Shown piece after piece: positions 22,920-33,014 of a stretch of DNA of 64,000 nucleotides. The translations under genes were made by a program, and so were the position numbers. The stretch comes from Catenuloplanes niger (lineage in GTDB: Bacteria; Actinomycetota; Actinomycetes; Mycobacteriales; Micromonosporaceae): positions 5,031,001 through 5,095,000 of the forward strand of contig NZ_JAVDYC010000001.1 of assembly GCF_031458255.1 (NCBI RefSeq). The letters run 5' to 3'. The notes beneath the pieces are model-generated. The model worked only from the letters and a program-made list of their open reading frames with translations, was not told where the DNA came from and made no database searches. Each line of letters opens with the position of its first letter. Within the stretch, counting starts at the first letter, position 1.

Positions 22920-23109
22920 TATGGGTAGCTCCGGGAAGACACGTTGCAGTCAAACGTCATGAACATCCCACCACACTCCCAGTCCGACCCAACCTGGGCT
23001 TTCTCTTTGACACTCGTCGTGATGGAATCTCGAAGGTTCGGCCCACCCGGGTCGAACTATGTTCGGCGGCCACCCACTCGGGGTGGCGCGGATGCTGAGG
23101 GGCGGTGAC

Positions 23110-26100
23110 GTGAGCGAGCAGCCAAGGAAGAGGGCGGCGGGAGCCGTCTCTTCACGTCTCCGTTGGCCTGGCAGCCGACTCCGCGACCTGCCGATCTGGT
23201 CCAAGCTCGGACTGATCATGATCGTGCCGACCATGGCGACGATCGTCGTGGGTACCAGCGGTCTGATCGACCACATCGAAGAGGCGCGCGACGCCGACCA
23301 GGCGCGCACGATCGCCCAGCTGGAGCAGTACTCCGGCGAGCTGATCGACAGCCTGCAGAACGAGCGGGCCGCGGCTGCCCGGTTCCTGAGCACGCCGAAC
23401 TCGCAGCGCGACGCCAAGGCGGGCCTGCTGGAGACGTTCAACCAGACGCACGCCGTCGTGGACGCCGCGAAGAAGCCCTACTCGCAGCAGCGCACGCTGC
23501 TCACCGACCTGCCGGACAGCAACTTCGAGACGCTGCTCGACACGGCCGACGCGAGCCTGGAGGAGCTGCCCGCGACGCGCAGTCAGGTCAGCAACAACTC
23601 GCTGCAGCTGTCGTTCGCCAAGCAGAGCTACGACGGCATCATCAACGGTCTCCTGCAGATCCGTAACTCCGCCTCCCAGCTCGCCGGTGACCCGGGCCTG
23701 AGCGACCGCATGCGGGCCAGCGCCGCGCTGGCGCAGGAGAAGGAGTACCTCTCCACCCAGCGCGTCATCGTGCACAGCGCGTTTGCCCAGGGCGAGATCA
23801 CCCCAAACCTCCGCAAGGACTACATCGCGACGCTGACCGGTCAGAACCAGGCGGCCGCCGCGTTCGAGACCGTCGCCACCCGGGAGGACCGGGACTACAA
23901 GCGACAGGTGATCGCCGGCCCGGACGAGCGTGAGGCGAAGTCCAACGCCGGTAAGATCGAGGCGAACCAGGACGGTGACATCACGTCGCTCGGCTTCTCC
24001 GCGGAGGAGTGGGACGAGGGGATGGCCGGCAAGAACAACCTGTTCCGCACGGTGGAGAAGCGACTGGACGAGCAGACCGTCACCGAGGCTACGACGCTGC
24101 GCAACGACGTGCAGCGGCGAGTCCTCGTGGAGACCGGTGTGCTGCTCGGCATGCTCCTCCTCGCGATCCTCTTCGCCTGGCTCGTGGCCCGGTCGATGGC
24201 CCGCTCGCTGCGCGAGCTCCGGCACGGCGCGCTCTCCGTCGCGCAGTACGGCCTGCCGCAGGCGGTCGCCCGGCTCCGTGACCCGGCGATCTCCGCGCAG
24301 CTGTCGCCGGTGCAGGTGGCCAACCAGATCGCCGAGCCGCTGCCGGTCCGCAGCCGGGACGAGTTCGGTCAGGTGACCGAGGCGTTCAACGCGGTCCACC
24401 TGGAGGCGGTGCGCACCGCGGCCGAGCAGGCCGTGCTCCGCGCGTCCGTCTCCACCATGTTCGTCAACCTCGCCCGCCGTTCGCAGATCCTGGTCGACCG
24501 GCTCATCGGTCACCTGGACCGGCTGGAGCGCGGCGAGGAGGACCCGGACCGGTTGGCCGAGCTCTTCCAGCTCGACCACCTGGCCACCCGAATGCGCCGC
24601 AACGACGAGAACCTCCTGGTGCTCGCGGGTGCGGACTCCACCCGCGTGCAGCGCGAGCCGGCCGCCCTGATCGACGTGCTGCGCGCCGCGCAGTCCGAGG
24701 TCGAGCACTACACCCGGATCGACTTCGGCAACATCGACAAGGACATCGAGATCTCGGCGCACGCCGTCAACGACCTCGTGCACCTCGTCGCCGAGCTGTT
24801 CGACAACGCGACCGCGTTCTCGCCGCCGGACTCGCAGGTCATCGTCGAGGCCCGGATCTACGGTGACCGCGCGACGCTGTCCGTCGAGGACCGTGGCATC
24901 GGCATCGCGCCGGACCAGATGCGCGACCTGAACGAGCGGCTGCAGCGTCCGCCGACCGTGGACGTCACGGTCTCCCGGATGATGGGCCTGGTCGTGGTCG
25001 CCCGCCTGGCGGCCCGGCACGGCGTCAAGGTCGAGCTGCGCTCCGCCAAGGAGCGCGGCACCGTCGCCGAGGTCACGCTGCCCACGGCGGTGCTGGCGTC
25101 GCACACGGCCGTCGGCGGTGGCCGGACCCCGGCCACGGTGGGCGGTGCCCGGCCCGAGCCGGCGGCGTTCGGCGGCGGTCCGGGCGGCTTCGGCTCGCCG
25201 CTGGCGCTGGAGGGTGGCTCCGGCCGCCCGCCGTCGCAGCGGGAGTCCGCGCCGTCGCTCGGCGGCTTCGCGAGCGAGCCGCTCCCGTCGTTCGGCGGGT
25301 TCGGCAACGACCCGGCGCCCACCTCGGGCGGCCCCACCCGGTCCATGCCGGCCTGGTCCGACCTGACCGGCGCCGCGCCGGGCGGTGGCACCAACGGGTC
25401 GAACGGCGGCCCCTCGAACGGCAACAACGGCAACAACGGCTTCGGCAGCTTCAACGGCTTCGGTGGCGGCCCGGCCGGTGGCGGCCCGCGCAACGGTCGT
25501 GCGACCGACGCGTTCGGCGCCAACGGCAGCCGTGCCGAGGGCCTGCCGCAGCGCCCGCGCCAGGACGGCCCGGCGCCGATGGACGACTTCGCCGGACCGG
25601 CGTCGCCGACCATCCCGCGGCAGAAGCCGGCCACGCCGGAGCAGCAGCGCGGCCCGGTGCCGCCGCTCTCCGTCCCGCCGGTCGCGTCGGCCCCGCCGGC
25701 GAGCGGCCCGACGTCGGCGCCCTCGGCACCGCCCGTGTGGCCGCCGATCGCACCCGCGGCGGAGAACCCGGCACCCCCGGTGCCGGAGAAGCTCGCCTCG
25801 TCGCTGGACCTGACCGCCGAGATCCCGCGGTACCGTCCGGAGAACGGCGCACCCACGGTGCCGCCGGTCGCCGCGGTCCCGTCGTCGGCGCAGCCGATCC
25901 CGTCCCCGGTGTCTCCGGCCACGCCCGCTCAGCCGGCCCCCCAGGCCGCGCCGAGGCAGCAGCCGGTGGTGGACGAGACCATGGAGCTGCCGATCTTCCG
26001 GGAGCTCGAGTCGGCCTGGTTCCGCACGCAGAAGGCGTCCGGTAAGCCGGCCACCGGTCCGACCGGTGCGGCGGCCACGCCCAGCCCGGCCGAGGCCGCG

Positions 26101-26580
26101 AGCGCCCCGACCCAGCAGTACGGGACGATCGAGGCGAGAAAGCGTAGTCTTCCCACGCCGGGTGGTGCAGCGCGCACGCCGGAGCCGGTCACCGCCGGGT
26201 CCGGGGCGCCGGTCACCACCGGCGACGGCGCCACGTCGCAGCGGATCTCCACCGAGCCTTCCGGGTGGCGGACCGCGGCCGACGAGGGCTGGCGGACGGC
26301 CGCCTCGGTCGCCGCGGCCGCGGGTGACACGGCGTCTGAGACCACCCAGGCGGGCCTGCCGAAGCGCAAGCCGATGGCACAGCTCGTTCCTGGTGGAATC
26401 GAGAAGGGGACCACGGTCGTCAACAAGCGGTCGCCCGAGGGGGTGCGCGGACTTCTGTCCGCCTACCACCGCGGCGTGCAGCGCGGGCGTACCACGGGTC
26501 CCAAGGACAACCCGACCGGTTCAGAGGGAACATTGGACGGGCAGCAATCCTCGCAGGCTGGCAAGGAGCATGAGGGATGA
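23110..26580 (+). CDS. cvnA: Conservon sensor histidine kinase (NIT-HAMP-HATPase)
   Basis: This large 1156-residue membrane kinase has TM1 near residues 37-58. An outer NIT-type sensing domain follows ([18 protein letters not shown] near residue 80), with TM2 near 345-370 and HAMP near 370-450. A phospho-acceptor region has [18 protein letters not shown] near residue 490. The ATPase shows [17 protein letters not shown] and [13 protein letters not shown]. Residues 680-1100 are disordered, rich in Gly, Pro and Asn. The C-terminus has [15 protein letters not shown] and a final RGVQRGR. GTG 23110 follows GAGGGG. It heads a cvnABCD operon and probably signals to the small GTPase. Confidence 0.9.
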
Positions 26581-26981
26581 CAACAACGCAGGACCTCGGT
26601 TGGTTGCTGGCGAACTTCGCCGACCGCGTTCCGGGTGTCGCGCATGCGGTCGCCGTATCCGCCGACGGTCTGCTTCTCGCCGGGTCCCGTGATCTTCCGC
26701 GGGACCGGGCCGACCAGCTGGCGGCCATCGCGTCCGGTCTGGTCAGCCTGACTCAGGGCGCGGCCCGCTGCTTCGAGGGCGGCGCCGTGCTCCAGACGGT
26801 CGTGGAGATGGACAACGGGTTTCTCTTCCTGATGTCGATCTCCGATGGCTCGTCCTTCGCCGTGCTGGCCGCGCGGAGCTGTGACGTCGGCCAGGTCGGT
26901 TACGAGATGGCCCTGCTGGTGGACCGGGTGGGCGACGCCCTGACCCCGGCTCCGCGTACCGCGGCGGGGATGGTTGGCTAA
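26577..26981 (+). CDS. cvnB: Roadblock/LC7 domain protein of the conservon
   Basis: This 134-residue Roadblock/LC7 protein has the typical core [34 protein letters not shown] near residues 24-57. In conservons these proteins form membrane complexes with the kinase and modulate the GTPase. ATG overlaps the cvnA stop by ATGA, indicating tight coupling. Confidence 0.9.
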
Positions 26982-27093: not shown

Positions 27094-27471
27094 ATGGCCG
27101 AACGCGAAGAGCCGACCGGCGCGCTGGTCAGGCCGTACGCCGTTACCCGAGGCCGGACCCGGCCACGGTTGGAGATCGCACTCGAAGCGCTGATTGAGAC
27201 GACGGTACGGGGCCGGTCCTCCGGCTCCAACAACGGCGGACACGGTCGAGAGCATCAATACATAGCCGCGCTGTGTGACGGCCGGCTGCAGTCACTCGCG
27301 GAGATCGCCGCGCGGATGTCACTTCCGCTCGGGGTCGCTCGGGTCCTCATCGCCGACATGGCCGCCGACGGCCTTGTCGCGGTGTATGAGCCGACGTCCC
27401 TGGAGGATGCGAACGACGCGGTGGGCACGGAATTGCTGGAGAGGGTGCTGAGTGGACTTCGCAGGCTCTGA
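27094..27471 (+). CDS. cvnC: DUF742 protein of the conservon
   Basis: This 125-residue DUF742 protein has RPYAVTRGRTRP near residue 10 and YIAALCDGRLQSLAEIAARMSLPLGVARVLIADMAADGLV near residues 52-92, a winged-helix-like pattern. GAGGGGG precedes ATG 27094. It is the third conservon component, and the last 20 bases overlap cvnD. Confidence 0.9.
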   Translation: MAEREEPTGALVRPYAVTRGRTRPRLEIALEALIETTVRGRSSGSNNGGHGREHQYIAALCDGRLQSLAEIAARMSLPLGVARVLIADMAADGLVAVYEPTSLEDANDAVGTELLERVLSGLRRL

Positions 27472-28063
27472 CACGGCGCACCGCCCTATGGCCGGGCGCG
27501 TGACATCGGCGAAGATTGTCATCGCCGGTGGGTTCGGCGTCGGAAAGACGACGCTGGTCGGCTCGGTCTCGGAAATCACTCCGCTGACCACCGAGGCCAT
27601 CATGACGTCGGCGGGCGTGGGCGTGGACGACACCCGGCAGGTGCCGGGCAAGACCACCACCACCACGGTCGCCATGGACTTCGGTCGAATCACGATCGAT
27701 CGCGACCTGATCCTGTACCTGTTCGGTACGCCGGGTCAGACGCGTTTCTGGTTCATGTGGGATGAACTGGTGCGCGGCGCGATCGGTGCGGTGGTGCTGG
27801 TGGACACCCGCCGGCTCGCGGACTGTTTCGCGGCGATCGACTTCTTCGAGCACCGGCGGCTGCCGTACCTCGTGGCCATCAACTGCTTCGACGGGATGCA
27901 GTACCACAACGCTCAGGATGTGCGGGACGCGCTCGCCATCTCCAGCGAGGTGCCCGTGGTGAGCTGCGACGCGCGTAACCGCGAGTCGACGAAGCACGTG
28001 TTGATCTCCCTGGTGGAGTACGTGCTGTCGATGCGCCGTTCGCGCGCGGTCGCGCCGGCCTGA
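27452..28063 (+). CDS. cvnD: Small GTP-binding protein of the conservon
   Basis: This 203-residue Ras-like GTPase of the conservon type has the P-loop GGFGVGKTTLVGSVSEI near residue 28. The switch region is TTTTVAMDFGRI near residue 66, LFGTPGQTRFW (G3) is near residue 90, and the G4-like INCFDG is near residue 147. GTG 27452 gives a 20-base overlap with cvnC. With cvnABC it resembles a GPCR-like signalling module of actinomycetes. Its target is unknown. Confidence 0.92.
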   Translation: MDFAGSDTAHRPMAGRVTSAKIVIAGGFGVGKTTLVGSVSEITPLTTEAIMTSAGVGVDDTRQVPGKTTTTTVAMDFGRITIDRDLILYLFGTPGQTRFWFMWDELVRGAIGAVVLVDTRRLADCFAAIDFFEHRRLPYLVAINCFDGMQYHNAQDVRDALAISSEVPVVSCDARNRESTKHVLISLVEYVLSMRRSRAVAPA

Positions 28064-28092
28064 CCACCGGGTCCAACGGCGAAAGACCCATC

Positions 28093-28119
28093 GGGGGTAC
28101 GGGATCATTCCGTACCCCC
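28093..28119 (+). terminator. Conservon operon terminator
   Basis: GGGGGTACGG (28093-28102) pairs perfectly with CCGTACCCCC (28110-28119) across a seven-base loop, followed by a T run at 28125-28129. It lies 30 bp after cvnD. Confidence 0.85.
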
Positions 28120-28143
28120 GCAGGTTTTTCCGCGGTCACGAAA

Positions 28144-28180: not shown

Positions 28181-29380
28181 TCAGGACGTGCGCACCCAGC
28201 TGTTCAGGTTGACGCTGAAGACGCCCAGCGAGTCGGCCTCCATGCCGCCGTGCCGGATCGTGGTCAGCGCGTAGGCGCCGGCCATGCCCTCCAGCGACGA
28301 CCGCTCCAGGTAGGCGCGCAGCCGGCCGCGGTCGACGCTCTTCGCCTGGAACGCGGCCTGGATCAGCAGGCTGATGCCGTCCCCGGCGTACGGCGCGAAG
28401 CCCTTGAACGAGCCGTACTGCGTCACGTACCGCTGGATCAGGTCGCGGCGGCGCTGACCCTCCGGGCCGGTCTCGGTCAGCGACGAGGCGCCGAGCGAGC
28501 CGGGGCTGATCGCGTACGAGCCCTCCACCGCGTCCGCGTTCTCCTCGGAGAGCGTCTCCTCGGTGACCGCCTCCGGCGTGAAGAAGAAGCGGCCCGTGTA
28601 ACCGGCCGCACGAAGCGCACGAGCGGCCTTTCCGGCGTCGGGCGACATCGCCCATATGATGATGGCCCCCGGGCGCCCCAGGACCGCCTCAGCGGCCGCG
28701 GCGGCGAAGTCCTGATCACCGGCGGGCAGCCGGACCGTGCTGCCGAGCGTGATGTCCCGGCTGGCGAGCGCGGAACCCATGTGCCGCACGCCCGCGTCGC
28801 CGTGCCGGCCGGTGCCGGCCAGGATCGACGCCTTCGCGATCTCCTGCCGGTCGATCTCCTGCGCCAGCGCCTGCGCGACGTCCCGGGCGTCCGGCGTCAC
28901 CTTGAACGTGTAGGTGCGCGCGGACAGCGGCGTCAGGATGTCGTCCGCGGACGCGAGCGACAGGAACGGCACCTGCAGCTCCTGCGCCACGTCGGAGATC
29001 GCGCTGGAGGTCTCCGGCACGGTGCCGCCGATGAGCGCGTTGACGCCGTCCCGGTTGGCCAGCTGCTGGGCCAGCTCGCCGGCCTTCTTCGGATCACCGC
29101 CGCTGTCCACGATCTTCAGCTGCAGCGTGCGGCGCTGCGTGCCGACCTGAAAGCCCTCCGCGTTCACCTGGACCTGGAACAGCTCCATCGCGCGGGCCTG
29201 GAGCTCGCCCATGGCGGTGCCGGTCCCGGTGCGTTCCAGGATGCCGCCGATCACGAGGTCGGTGCTGGAGGCGGTCCTGGGGCCGGTCGACTCGTCGTCG
29301 GTGCCGCAGGCGGCCACGGTGAGCGCGGACGCGGTCGCCACGAGCAGGCCCCGCCGCGTGATGGTGGGCCGGTTGAGCAT
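28181..29380 (-). CDS. Branched-chain-amino-acid-type substrate-binding lipoprotein
   Basis: This 399-residue type-I periplasmic-binding-fold protein starts at ATG 29380. The N-terminus carries a twin-arginine-like signal and a lipobox (TRRGLLVATASALTVAAC, Cys near residue 25). Family landmarks include GGILERTGTGTAMGELQARAM and LVDSGGDPKKAGELA-type strands (here IVDSGGDPKKAGELAQQL), and AYALTTIRHGG near the end. No permease or ATPase lies next to it, so it is an orphan binding protein, perhaps a sensor component. Upstream ATG 29473 would place extra residues before the signal and is not favoured. Confidence 0.82.
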   Translation of the reverse strand: MLNRPTITRRGLLVATASALTVAACGTDDESTGPRTASSTDLVIGGILERTGTGTAMGELQARAMELFQVQVNAEGFQVGTQRRTLQLKIVDSGGDPKKAGELAQQLANRDGVNALIGGTVPETSSAISDVAQELQVPFLSLASADDILTPLSARTYTFKVTPDARDVAQALAQEIDRQEIAKASILAGTGRHGDAGVRHMGSALASRDITLGSTVRLPAGDQDFAAAAAEAVLGRPGAIIIWAMSPDAGKAARALRAAGYTGRFFFTPEAVTEETLSEENADAVEGSYAISPGSLGASSLTETGPEGQRRRDLIQRYVTQYGSFKGFAPYAGDGISLLIQAAFQAKSVDRGRLRAYLERSSLEGMAGAYALTTIRHGGMEADSLGVFSVNLNSWVRTS

Positions 29381-29539
29381 GGTTCCAAGCCTTTCGCCAC
29401 GGGGTGGCGACAAGGGATGTGGAGCCGCCACGCCCCCAGCAGAATCGTGCTTGTTATCACGCCCTGTAGTCAATAGCCCGACATGTGGGCAACGACACCG
29501 AGGTCAGTGGGCAGATGAGGAGAACTACTCAAAGTGACA

Positions 29540-31903
29540 TTATGAGCGATATGTCGCCGAGCGGAACTCGTACTCGTCGTCGTTGGTGTCGTCCACCCGG
29601 CTGCCCTGATCGCGGGTGAAGTCCCAGCCGCCGGCCGACTCGCGGCCCGGGCGGCCACCGACCGCGAACCCGCCGATCTCCTGCCCGCGACGCCAGCCGC
29701 GGAAGTATCCGGTGGTGTTCGCCGCCAGCGACTGGGCGTCGCGGACGATGCGCAGCTGCCGGTCCTCGCGGAGCGCGGAGCCGGGCACCAGGTTGGCCTG
29801 CGGGACGCGCTTGGGCAGACCGGCGTTGGTCTCGGCGCCGACGGCCGGGCGGGCCGCCTGCTCCGCGGCCTGCCAGGCGGAGTCCATCCGCCCCCAGTTC
29901 GGCTCCGCCTCGGTCTCCACCACCGGGTCTTCCTTGCTGTGCCCGGTGAACCAGGCCGACGCGGTGGCGGAGAAGATCAGCAGGTCGCCGTCGCCCTCGT
30001 CGACCGGCAGCGGGGTCGAGCTGTCAAGCGCGTCCGCGACGCGCCGGGTCGGGTCGACGAGGCGCAGCGGCGGCGTGTACGACTCGGTGCCGAGCGACGG
30101 ATCGTCGCCACGGCCGTTGACCGGCTCGACCAGTCGCAGCACCGGCGGCTCCGGCGGCAGGTCGTCCGACTGCCACGGCGGCCGGACGCGCAGCGTCTCC
30201 GCCATCGTCGGCGCCTCCGGGCCGGCCGGCCCGCGCAGCTGCGGCTGCTCGCCGGTGTGCGCGCGCTCGTCGGCGTCCTGGTGCGTCGGCCACGCGGCCC
30301 GGGAGCCCGGCTCCGGCGCCGGCGGCGGCGGCGTGGTCCGGGACGGCGGCATGCCGAGCCTTATGTCGGTCAGGCCACCACCGGCGGGCGGCGGCGTGTT
30401 GATGCCGTTCGCCGCGGGCAGGTCGGTGTCGCGCGAGGTCAGCTCCGCCATCCGCTGCCGGTGCTCGGCGCGGCTGCTGTTGATCGCGGCCGTGGTCAGC
30501 GGCGCGCGGAACGGCTCGCCGGAGTCGGCCGGGCTCGGCGTACGCGTCGGCGGCTTCGGCCCGGGACGGACACCGGGGTGTATCGGCGTGAGGCCCGGCG
30601 GCGGGGGCGGCGGCGCGGAGACCGGCCGGTTGGCCAGGCTGTCGGGGCGGCGGCCGGCCGGGCTGACCGGCACGTTCTCGCCGGTGCCCTCGCGCGCGGC
30701 GCGGCGGCCCGCGGTCAGGTCGACGCGCCGGAACGCGCCGGTCGTCGAGTCCAGCTGGATCGAGGACGTGTCGGGGCGGCTCAGCGGGCTGAGCGAGGTG
30801 TCCGGGCCGGTCATGTCGCTGGACGCGGCCACCGCGAACGGGGGCGGCCCGGTCGGCACCGGCGCGCCCGGCGTCTGACCCTCCGACGCCTGGATGCGGG
30901 CCCGGCGGCTGCCCATGGCGGCCGCGGCTCCACCGCCACGCACCGGGTGCAGCGGCGCCGCGGACGGGGCGGCCGCCGCCGGCTCCGCGGACGCGCCGAG
31001 CAGACGGCGGTCCGTGGCCGGTGCCGGCGCGACGATCCGGGAGGCCAGCGTGGCGACCAGCGTCTCGCAGGCGGCGTCGCAGGCCCGGACGGCCGCGACG
31101 GCCTGCCGGACGGTCTCGGCGACGGTGGGGGCGAGCGCGCGGTTGACGCCGCGGCGGGCGGCCTCGTTCACCGAGGCCTGCAACGCGGTGATCGCGGCGT
31201 GCACCTGCTCGGCCGGCGCGACGCCGTCGGCGACGATCTGCGAGGCGATCGCCTCGGTGGTGACGGTGATCTCGCGGTCCCGGCCGGGCGCGCCGCCACC
31301 GAGCCGGCTCGGCTCGGGGACGGCCGCCAGCACGGCCAGCACGAGCGGGTCGGCCGGGTCCGGGTAGGCCCGCAACGCGGCCGGGTAGAGCTCGCGCAGC
31401 ACCTCGCGCAGCGCCACCGCGGCGGCGTGCCGCCCGATGGCGAGCGCGGCGTGCGCGTTGAGGACCGGCTGGTAGCCGACCAGGCCGGCCGGCGGCGCCA
31501 CGTTTATCGCGGTGAGCGCGCCGGCCTGCAACGCCCGGGCCAGCCCGACCGCGCGGCGCGCCCCGGGGGAGGACGGGGCCTCGTCGCCGGCGAACCGGGA
31601 GGCGAAGTCGTCGGCGTCGTCGTCGTCCGCCACGGCCAGCGGGCGTCCCGCGGCCGTGAGCAGCGAGGTGACCAGCAGGTCGTCGCTGTCGGCGGCGACC
31701 GACACGCTGGGAGAACCACTGGCGCGCTCCGCGAGCAGCGAGCTGAGCCGGGCGAACCCGGACGCGTCGTCGCTTATCTCGGAGACGTGCAGCTGCCGGC
31801 CGGCGTCGTCCACCACGGCCACCATGAGGGACTGACCCTCGGTGGCCCGCCGCGCGGACGAATCCGCCGACGCCAGACCGCAGTACACCCGCACGAGCGC
31901 CAC
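29540..31903 (-). CDS. IS110-type RuvC-like domain protein, probably catalytically dead, with disordered tail
   Basis: This protein has 787 residues from GTG 31903, chosen because GGGAGGAGG precedes it (MALVRVYCGLASAD). Residues 1-180 line up with the DEDD domain of IS110-family transposases: MVAVVDDAGRQLHVSEISDD, SVSVAADSDDLLVTSLLTAA, GRPLAVADDDDADDFASRF and AVGLARALQAGAL. The usual catalytic Asp/Glu positions appear replaced, for example GID by GLA and E by A. No IS110 C-terminal domain or terminal repeats are seen. Residues 330-700 are Pro/Gly-rich. The C-terminus has GLPKRVPQANLVPG and a later RGWRRGQ, like the conservon kinase. It is probably a domesticated protein of unknown role. Confidence 0.55.
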   Translation of the reverse strand: MALVRVYCGLASADSSARRATEGQSLMVAVVDDAGRQLHVSEISDDASGFARLSSLLAERASGSPSVSVAADSDDLLVTSLLTAAGRPLAVADDDDADDFASRFAGDEAPSSPGARRAVGLARALQAGALTAINVAPPAGLVGYQPVLNAHAALAIGRHAAAVALREVLRELYPAALRAYPDPADPLVLAVLAAVPEPSRLGGGAPGRDREITVTTEAIASQIVADGVAPAEQVHAAITALQASVNEAARRGVNRALAPTVAETVRQAVAAVRACDAACETLVATLASRIVAPAPATDRRLLGASAEPAAAAPSAAPLHPVRGGGAAAAMGSRRARIQASEGQTPGAPVPTGPPPFAVAASSDMTGPDTSLSPLSRPDTSSIQLDSTTGAFRRVDLTAGRRAAREGTGENVPVSPAGRRPDSLANRPVSAPPPPPPGLTPIHPGVRPGPKPPTRTPSPADSGEPFRAPLTTAAINSSRAEHRQRMAELTSRDTDLPAANGINTPPPAGGGLTDIRLGMPPSRTTPPPPAPEPGSRAAWPTHQDADERAHTGEQPQLRGPAGPEAPTMAETLRVRPPWQSDDLPPEPPVLRLVEPVNGRGDDPSLGTESYTPPLRLVDPTRRVADALDSSTPLPVDEGDGDLLIFSATASAWFTGHSKEDPVVETEAEPNWGRMDSAWQAAEQAARPAVGAETNAGLPKRVPQANLVPGSALREDRQLRIVRDAQSLAANTTGYFRGWRRGQEIGGFAVGGRPGRESAGGWDFTRDQGSRVDDTNDDEYEFRSATYRS

Positions 31904-31964
31904 GGCGTCGTCCTCCTCCCAGGACACATGTCGTGTGCCAAAGACTGATGCTCCCCGTAAAGGG

Positions 31965-33014
31965 TCAGTCGCGCCAGTCCACGACAGCAGAGATCTTGCC
32001 GATGATGGTGCGCCAGCCGAGGCTCGCCTGTTGCGCACCGATGCGCTTGAGACGGCGCCGGCCCATGAAGCCACCGATGCCACCTCGCGACGCGGACCGC
32101 AGCGCCTCGTCCAGGTCGTCCAGCGGAGAGCCCGGGGAGAGCGCGGTCAGCACCGGCGCCAACCGAAGAGCGTAGCCGAGGTCGCGGGCGACCTCGCCGG
32201 CCTCGATCAGCAGACCGAGGTCCCACGCGTCCGCGCCACCCCGGAGGTTCTCCACCACCAGGTCCAGGCCGTAGTCGTCGTCCTCGAGCGGAACGACGTC
32301 CGCCGGCTGGAGACGCTCTGCCAGTGTGCCCCAAGTATCGAGCTGAGCGAGGTCGTGCGGGGCACCCGAACGGACGAAAGCGACGAGCGATTCGGGGCTC
32401 TTGAACAGCAGGAGCTTGCCCTTGTGGGTCAGGAAGGCCGGGACCTCCTCGGCCTCCTCCTCCTTTTCGGCCGCCGCGGTGTCCGAGTCGGCGTCCTTGT
32501 CGGCCGAGTCGGCGTCCTCGTCGTCCGAGTCGCCGGACTTCTCGTCCTTCTCGGCCTCCTCGAACAGCTCCTTGGCCTCCTCGTCGAGGATGACCACCTC
32601 GCCGTCCTCGTCGTCGTCGAGCTCGTCCTCGTCCTCGTCGCGCAGCCGGCGGGCGCGCGCGGCGAACGGGTCGTCGTCGTCCGCGGCCTCGATCTCGGTC
32701 GGCGTCAGCTCGGTGGCCGGCCGGTACGCCCGGAGCGTGTAACCGACGCCGGACGGCAACGCGATCGACACCGGGTCGATCCTCGTCTCCTCCCAGAGCG
32801 AGCGGTCGATCTCGGCGGTGGTGTCGTCGTCCTCCACCGCGGTCGTGTCGCCGGCCTCGACGGCGGTGGTGTCGTCGTCCTCGACCGCCGCACTCGTCAC
32901 GGCGTCGTCAACGCCGGTCTCGGGCTCGTCGGCATCCTGCCGGTTGGGCGTCTGGGCGGCCACGGTGACCTCCGTATGGCTCTCGTGTTCGGCGCGCTGC
33001 GGCGGTGCAGGCAT
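31965..33014 (-). CDS. Acidic conserved hypothetical protein
   Basis: This 349-residue protein has residues 30-70 with repeated (A)VEDDDTT units and residues 110-200 very rich in Asp/Glu. A better ordered C-terminal half follows: VPAFLTHKGKLLLFKSPESL, LVVENLRGGADAWDLGLL and a basic GFMGRRRLKRIGAQ end. It lies 61 bp upstream of the IS110-like gene on the same strand, so co-transcription is likely. Some related proteins may be labelled primosomal in databases, but nothing here shows that function. I do not recognise a catalytic motif. Confidence 0.6.
   Translation of the reverse strand: MPAPPQRAEHESHTEVTVAAQTPNRQDADEPETGVDDAVTSAAVEDDDTTAVEAGDTTAVEDDDTTAEIDRSLWEETRIDPVSIALPSGVGYTLRAYRPATELTPTEIEAADDDDPFAARARRLRDEDEDELDDDEDGEVVILDEEAKELFEEAEKDEKSGDSDDEDADSADKDADSDTAAAEKEEEAEEVPAFLTHKGKLLLFKSPESLVAFVRSGAPHDLAQLDTWGTLAERLQPADVVPLEDDDYGLDLVVENLRGGADAWDLGLLIEAGEVARDLGYALRLAPVLTALSPGSPLDDLDEALRSASRGGIGGFMGRRRLKRIGAQQASLGWRTIIGKISAVVDWRD

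Follow-up and report, generated by a model that had tools for sequence, protein, structure and literature searches.

What does a fragment of a mobile-element recombinase do when it has become a fixed gene beside a bacterial G-protein operon? The question is raised by a gene on the minus strand of a 64,000-nucleotide stretch of the Catenuloplanes niger genome (contig NZ_JAVDYC010000001.1, positions 5,031,001 to 5,095,000; the whole stretch is referred to as the window). Its product joins an N-terminal part resembling IS110 proteins, which are recently described RNA-guided recombinases, to a C-terminal tail resembling that of a neighboring kinase in a conservon, an actinobacterial G-protein operon. 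On the sequence evidence, the protein almost certainly descends from an IS110-family recombinase and is a catalytically dead fragment of it. The preferred reading of its role, held at a probability of about 0.5, is that this fragment (a RuvC-like domain and a coiled coil), fused through a long linker to the conservon kinase tail, acts as a dimeric adaptor of a G-protein switch. The locus would then represent a core gene of a bacterial family, built from an IS110 recombinase and tied to conservon G-protein signaling, whose signal path is poorly understood.

The window genome is a single contig of 9.74 Mb from the family Micromonosporaceae, and the minus-strand frame is open throughout from 29540 to 32083. 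A preliminary description of this DNA began the gene at a GTG at 31903. The start conserved across relatives is another GTG 24 nt upstream, at 31927 (MSWEEDD...), giving a protein of 795 residues; the stretch upstream of 31903 is kept in many relatives, and 31927 is probably, by sequence, the true start. Among the named relatives (throughout, the best 80 of 199), the closest at this gene is Catenuloplanes japonicus, with 86% identity. The gene is laid out as follows.

29540..31927, minus strand: IS110-derived gene, apparently exapted, 795 residues; start GTG 31927 (alternative GTG 31903), stop 29540
31493..31927, minus strand: RuvC-like (DEDD, IS110) domain, residues 1 to about 145, from sequence, with the fold taken from the model of relative L121
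31028..31492, minus strand: IS110/Nop-type helical coiled-coil region, residues about 146-300, from alignment and models
30008..31027, minus strand: Pro/Ala/Ser-rich linker, residues about 301-640, probably disordered, from composition and the rates of nonsynonymous (dN) and synonymous (dS) substitution
29543..29989, minus strand: conserved C-terminal module, residues 647-795 (LLIFxxxxSAWFTG ... GLPKRVPQANLVPGS ... TGYFRGWRRGQEIGG...), homologous to the tail of CvnA-type kinases

The long disordered tail of the preliminary description probably survives as the Pro/Ala-rich linker (residues about 300-640). It does not hold for residues about 145-300, which are a predicted coiled coil, or for the last 150 or so, which form a strongly conserved module.

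Descent of the N-terminal part

Homology to IS110 proteins is carried by profile comparisons. An hhalign comparison of the family with four IS110 proteins gave a probability of 99.4% (E 1.2e-21), collinear over residues 1-236. A purpose-built hidden Markov model (HMM) of 19 IS110 sequences matched all 80 named relatives, the best of them at 71.9 bits, and gave the window protein a score of 65.9 bits; reciprocally, the family HMM scored IS110 proteins at up to 92.4 bits, while 1530 shuffled or reversed controls scored no higher than 8.2 bits. An intact IS110 protein of 420 residues used as a query retrieved the window gene (E 4.1e-4) together with its relatives. The IS110-like order seen earlier in the first 180 or so residues is therefore, by hhalign, reciprocal HMMs and controls, not due to chance. 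The Pfam model for this domain, PF01548 (DEDD_Tnp_IS110), matches 12 of the 23 aligned members (alignment A1) at E ≤ 1; when ten members were scanned singly, four matched at E ≤ 0.1 and only L042 passed the cut-off (41.1 bits versus 29). The window protein has no match to the Pfam IS110 model even at E ≤ 1, and scanning it alone against Pfam, NCBIfam and PHROGs gave nothing significant (best PHROGs E 0.11); PADLOC had no match for the two proteins scanned. By sequence, the protein belongs to the IS110-type DEDD RuvC-like domains, with the window member itself unreported by Pfam. The likeness is to one kind of IS110 (the actinobacterial CGIDWxExHHDV kind), and the kind represented by L033 scores about 0 bits with the family profile. 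The window genome has six equal-scoring copies of this other IS110 kind (L031-L036), two of which were tested and scored about 0 bits with that profile.

The predicted fold is known from two AlphaFold2 models. The first, with the window protein as target and 26 rows, had a mean predicted local distance difference test score (pLDDT) of 58.9 and a weak RuvC part; Foldseek ranked ISCro4 first (E 0.39). The second, with the relative L121 as target, 49 rows (window included) and no templates, reached a pLDDT of 72.5 and a predicted template modeling score of 0.69. It has strands and helices in RuvC order, followed by two long helices with a helical tip, so that the unrelated fold that could have overturned the preliminary description did not appear. 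VIA-align, which re-ranks candidates supplied by Foldseek, matched L121 residues 3-143 to ISCro4 (Z 10.6) and IS621 (Z 10.4; 118 residues, 2.9 Å), and the RuvC part to T. thermophilus RuvC (Z 8.8). Residues ~140-298 matched the coiled coils of Nop5, Nop56/58 and Prp31 at Z 9.0-11.8 over 116-135 residues, a range (below about 13 for helical structures) that may reflect a common arrangement. The processome chains among these matches are presumably Nop56/Nop58; the other matched rows were named Nop5, Nop56/58, box C/D RNP and Prp31. Within these models the RuvC match is the stronger part of the fold evidence, stronger than the helical match. The fold claim draws on both the sequence evidence and the Z-scores from VIA-align; it concerns the relative L121 rather than the window protein.

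The residues needed for catalysis are largely gone. At the first catalytic aspartate (D1), the 116 rows scored among 117 have Ala (103), Thr (10), Ser (2) or Val (1) and never Asp, whereas the IS110 comparison set has Asp in 30 of 30. The 117 rows include near-copies and amount to 108 different sequences over residues 21-220; L119, the row left unscored, has the residues MYCGLA. In the window protein D1 is replaced by Ala, in CGLAS, and the catalytic Glu position is Asp, as in 113 of 117 rows, window included. Both substitutions proposed in the preliminary description are thus present, and with D1 other than Asp in 116 of 116 scored rows the DEDD set is not intact in orthologues either. The D3/D4 loop of the window protein reads SPGARRA, without an acidic residue. 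Across the family, the seven-residue stretch that precedes the following helix motif contains no acid in 33 of 117 rows, one in 72, and two or three in 12, in a register that is unsure by one residue because the MAFFT and HMM alignments disagree. The deep-branch relatives L045-L048 retain D-x-x-D in this loop despite the loss of D1, as if the active site had decayed stepwise (the same doubt about register applies).

The C-terminal domain of IS110 proteins, Tnp (PF02371, with the catalytic Ser), was detected in both IS110 proteins scanned but in neither the window protein nor L042. The RuvC-like domain has shifted from basic to acidic. Over the first 235 residues the median net charge is -17 in the family (range -21 to -2, 115 rows) versus +3 in IS110 proteins (range -8 to 15, 30 rows), and the mean number of Lys residues is 1.04 versus 6.0. 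The gene is separated from its upstream neighbor by 37 bp, a gap in which a bridge RNA could hardly be accommodated; on the downstream side there are at most about 160 bp of noncoding sequence (open reading frame, or ORF, coordinates). Rfam gave no match in the window, and no bridge-RNA structure search was made beyond Rfam. A single copy in the window genome with fixed neighbors is not the pattern of a mobile IS110 element; the lack of element ends reported earlier fits with that single copy and with the short distance to the preceding gene. An earlier hint that the protein might continue to work with RNA finds little favor, given the missing Tnp domain, the 37 bp upstream and a domain that by its sequence is now acidic.

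The gene was found in 197 of 200 Micromonosporaceae genomes, in 41 of 42 genera (188 of 191 among the best assemblies), and the three genomes without it are draft assemblies of 360-780 contigs. The weakest of the 197 best matches (E 1.4e-33) is stronger than the strongest match outside the family (E 2.1e-25, class sample). All 37 same-family genomes in a sample of 61 matched; the 38th match, in G049, is a broken IS110 copy. The long matches among those listed for the order sample (249 genomes) fall in 42 genomes of the family, with 155 genomes lacking a match and the families of these not seen; for the class sample (296 genomes), full-length matches from three genomes of the family were listed. 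Profile matches outside the family are IS110-like proteins where they were read (L040, L183-L186) or inspected at their first residues (L187-L194), and the remainder were judged by score and ORF length only. Scans of viral contigs found no relatives.

In the tree, the IS110-derived family forms one side of a branch with support of 100/100. The best tree places it beside one IS110 group with support of 67/1, and an alternative placement at the base is kept (approximately unbiased, AU, test p 0.26). The direction of descent, from IS110 to host gene, is inferred from narrow distribution, lost residues and skewed similarity, all features of sequence, and not from tree support. Substitution rates were estimated for seven pairs (NG86, own script), and dN was below dS in every segment of all seven. 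In the pair with L049, dN and dS were 0.060 and 0.278 for the RuvC segment (residues 1-170), 0.078 and 0.368 for the coiled coil (150-300), 0.130 and 0.376 for the tail, and 0.188 and 0.453 for the linker; between L061 and L064 they were 0 and 0.141, 0.003 and 0.297, 0.006 and 0.282, and 0.055 and 0.390, in the same order. By this measure the gene is under purifying selection. The exaptation of a dead IS110 RuvC domain, first suggested from the window alone, is now backed by homology, by the missing catalytic residues and Tnp domain, by purifying selection, by a family-wide fixed place and by a kinase-type tail.

The kinase tail and the conservon next door

The set of genes in a conservon, CvnA to CvnD, comprises a kinase, a roadblock protein, a DUF742 protein and a GTPase (PMC13343842). 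The last ~150 residues of the IS110-derived protein share homology with the C-terminal end of the conservon kinase next to it, and the signaling-style tail of the preliminary description was in this sense well named. BLASTP aligned the two tails in the window across 53 residues with 38% identity (E 4e-5). An HMM built from 71 tails recovered the window kinase at E 1.8e-15 when 208 window ORFs were searched, as well as 51 of the 55 kinase ORFs in the named loci. Four of 75 proteins had been left out of this model: the motif is a variant one in L043 and L044, and the tail is missing from the ends of the L111 and L115 ORFs. The tail alignment (20 sequences) has 29 invariant columns and a mean column identity of 61%, with conservation even in deep branches; the N-terminal alignment (23 sequences) has a mean column identity of 51%. 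Across the whole genome, at E ≤ 0.001, the tail occurs at three places: the IS110-derived gene, the neighboring kinase and one other kinase, both kinases being followed by a roadblock gene. It was not detected at that threshold in the other conservon kinases of the window genome. The IS110-derived protein has no match to any Pfam family, neither to NIT nor to the kinase core of HAMP and HATPase. A second conservon (L180/L214, G000:C1:3557216-3557874) has a kinase with the same tail and a roadblock protein that groups with the window CvnB (85/93). An extra C-terminal stretch, GGRPGREAAGGWDFSRD (alignment A3; window 29543-29690), is present in the rows that have no roadblock gene beside them. 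It is missing from L042 and L045-L048, where that gene is present, and is partial in L026, where the gene is present also.

The neighbors of the gene in the window are listed below.

31965..33014, minus strand: SatS-like gene directly upstream, 37 bp gap (NCBIfam SatS E 2.4e-9, 36.7 bits, far under the cut-off of 700)
23059..26580, plus strand: CvnA-type sensor kinase (NIT, HAMP, HATPase) with the homologous tail at its C-terminus
26577..26981, plus strand: CvnB-type roadblock/LC7 protein
27094..27471, plus strand: CvnC-type DUF742 protein
27452..28063, plus strand: CvnD-type small GTPase (best Pfam match ATP_bind_1; the CvnD name comes from position)
28181..29473, minus strand: optional gene for a periplasmic binding protein (25 of 54 loci), lying between the two units
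28092-28120 (plus strand) and 28160-28147 (minus strand): terminator-like hairpins between the convergent units

Neighbors were counted in the 54 of 80 named loci with enough flanking sequence. Convergent GTPase, DUF742 and roadblock genes occur in all 54 and the kinase in 52; a PadR gene occurs in 46. The SatS-like gene is upstream in all 54, in all 80 named loci regardless of flank, and in six of the seven deep-branch loci (not detected in L048).

In each of the seven deep-branch loci (L042-L048), as well as in L026, a roadblock gene lies directly downstream on the same strand, which places the IS110-derived protein in the position of the kinase of a conservon. The ancestral unit probably consisted of the SatS-like protein, the IS110-derived protein and the roadblock protein. 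Over 117 loci, the adjacent roadblock gene is present in eight, absent in 62 and not judgeable in 47; of 17 extended stretches, 16 lack it and one has it (the same gene as in L026). The adjacent roadblock proteins, seven of which were in a tree, stand apart there (100/100) from nine roadblock proteins of the window genome, where ten roadblock places were found and the tenth, a weak match, was left out. Given this separation, the proposed partner in the window genome could only be the CvnB of the conservon itself. A further roadblock gene (L213, G000:C1:1672726-1673097) is 63% identical to the window CvnB and has no conservon neighbors in the 3.4 kb around it.

Proposed mechanism and rival readings

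The mechanism proposed for the adaptor (dimerization, binding of the tail to a roadblock protein, and an effect on the GTPase) is tentative at every step. The protein would be cytosolic and dimerized by its coiled coil, by analogy with IS621, whose coiled coil dimerizes (PMC11208158). Its inert RuvC domain would serve as a protein-binding platform; the analogue is Nop5, in which an inactive RuvC domain recruits fibrillarin (PMC12045711). The kinase-type tail might bind a roadblock protein of the MglB/CvnB type, as the corresponding tail of the kinase would; by bringing or withholding this regulator, the adaptor could adjust the activity of CvnD, the GTPase of the convergent conservon. The text of PMC13015309 describes the mycobacterial roadblock protein MfpD as the GTPase-activating protein (GAP) of the GTPase MfpB, and a figure legend in it swaps the roles of GAP and guanine nucleotide exchange factor (GEF). 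As to origin, it is plausible that an IS110 element inserted into a duplicated kinase-roadblock pair and so fused recombinase and tail.

A number of observations weigh against this picture. A profile of 23 members had its best match among PDB sequences in an unrelated chain (E 0.48), and Foldseek alone gave no match at E ≤ 0.001 for either model, the first rank for L121 being ISCro4 at E 0.019. The sequence tree does not demonstrate an origin from within IS110 (AU p 0.26 for the placement at the base). No dedicated roadblock gene accompanies the IS110-derived gene in the window or in most relatives (62 of 70 judged loci; 16 of 17 extended stretches), and none of the nine window-genome roadblock proteins in the tree groups with the deep-branch ones. 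A roadblock gene behind the kinase gene is the normal order in conservons, which makes the pairing of tail and roadblock protein unspecific as evidence. The IS110-derived gene is convergent to the conservon and outside its unit. The neighboring kinase has its own NIT sensor, whereas the published CvnE and CvnF accessories accompany kinases that lack one (PMC13343842).

Those accessories suggest a different role, in which the IS110-derived part would bind a small ligand or the kinase and modulate CvnA, with the tail only as an anchor. In Streptomyces coelicolor CvnF8 stimulates CvnA8 (PMC13343842), and the conserved neighborhood would suit such an accessory; Pfam, however, finds no GAF or P450 domain in the protein, and the sensor on the neighboring kinase argues the other way, which leaves a sensory or allosteric accessory unlikely. 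That the true partner is the SatS-like protein, in an export chaperone pathway, with the conservon neighborhood incidental, is improbable: the SatS-like gene of the window does lie on the same strand, 37 bp upstream, and such a gene was found in 80 of 80 named and six of seven deep-branch loci, but its similarity to SatS is weak (36.7 bits, cut-off 700), and homology ties the conserved tail to that of the conservon kinase. Scarcely different in standing is an exapted regulator that binds RNA or DNA, in the manner of TnpB-derived repressors, through a dead RuvC domain and coiled coil, the tail linking it to the conservon. Homology to a family of RNA-guided recombinases and the modeled match of L121 to the Nop5/Prp31 coiled coils and to IS621 and ISCro4 would accord with it; the missing Tnp domain, the 37 bp upstream, the lack of an Rfam match in the window and the apparently unfavorable acidity of the first 235 residues (-17 versus +3, Lys 1.04 versus 6.0) would not.

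A bolder form, distinctly improbable, makes the protein an RNA-guided recombinase rebuilt as the receptor of a G-protein switch: RuvC domain and coiled coil would sense RNA or branched nucleic acid and report through the tail and roadblock protein to the Ras-like GTPase, as a kinase-free, transposon-derived analogue of CvnA. The reading that can be set aside is that of an ordinary decaying IS110 pseudogene. It would explain the loss of the catalytic residues and of the C-terminal domain, and is refuted by conservation: a long intact ORF, dN below dS in all segments of seven pairs, presence in 197 of 200 genomes and fixed neighbors. The dimeric adaptor thus remains the preferred reading. Because it carries the tail of the kinase without being a kinase, the IS110-derived protein makes the function of tail and roadblock protein directly testable.

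Comparison with known systems

IS110 recombinases such as IS621 and ISCro4 resemble the family in sequence, over both RuvC-like domain and coiled coil, and, by the L121 model, in fold. In IS621 the RuvC domain spans residues 1-122, the coiled coil 123-188 and Tnp 189-326, with D11, E60, D102, D105 and S241 (PMC11208158). The family differs from these in the loss of D1, the substitution of D3/D4 in most members, the absence of Tnp, the 37-bp upstream gap, the single fixed copy, the acidity, and the addition of linker and kinase tail. With CvnA kinases it has the C-terminal module in common, followed in deep-branch relatives by a roadblock gene; the IS110-derived part stands here in place of NIT, HAMP and HATPase. 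Like CvnE and CvnF, it is an extra conserved gene beside a conservon (54 of 54 flanked loci). Those accessories are P450 and GAF proteins (PMC13343842), whereas this one is IS110-derived, lies on the opposite strand and has no P450 or GAF domain.

Nop5, Nop56, Nop58 and Prp31 may be alike in coiled-coil fold, going by the L121 model, and Nop5 likewise has an inactive RuvC domain. The likeness would be one of fold rather than of sequence; by Pfam the C-terminal RNA-binding Nop domain is absent here, and a low-complexity linker follows the coiled coil. TldR, an RNA-guided repressor derived from TnpB, belongs to another protein family, and RNA guidance is not indicated for the IS110-derived protein. 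Like it, TldR is a nuclease-dead, exapted transposon protein (PMC13418256). The literature searched, with subscription papers and most preprints outside it, yielded no paper that describes the domestication of an IS110 protein or connects IS110 with conservons; the available part of PMC11208160 does not mention domestication, exaptation or co-option, and that of PMC8987985 does not mention IS110 or DEDD. Domesticated transposases and conservon accessory proteins are each already known, and it is their combination that is new: an enzyme of a mobile element has apparently become a building block of bacterial G-protein signaling.

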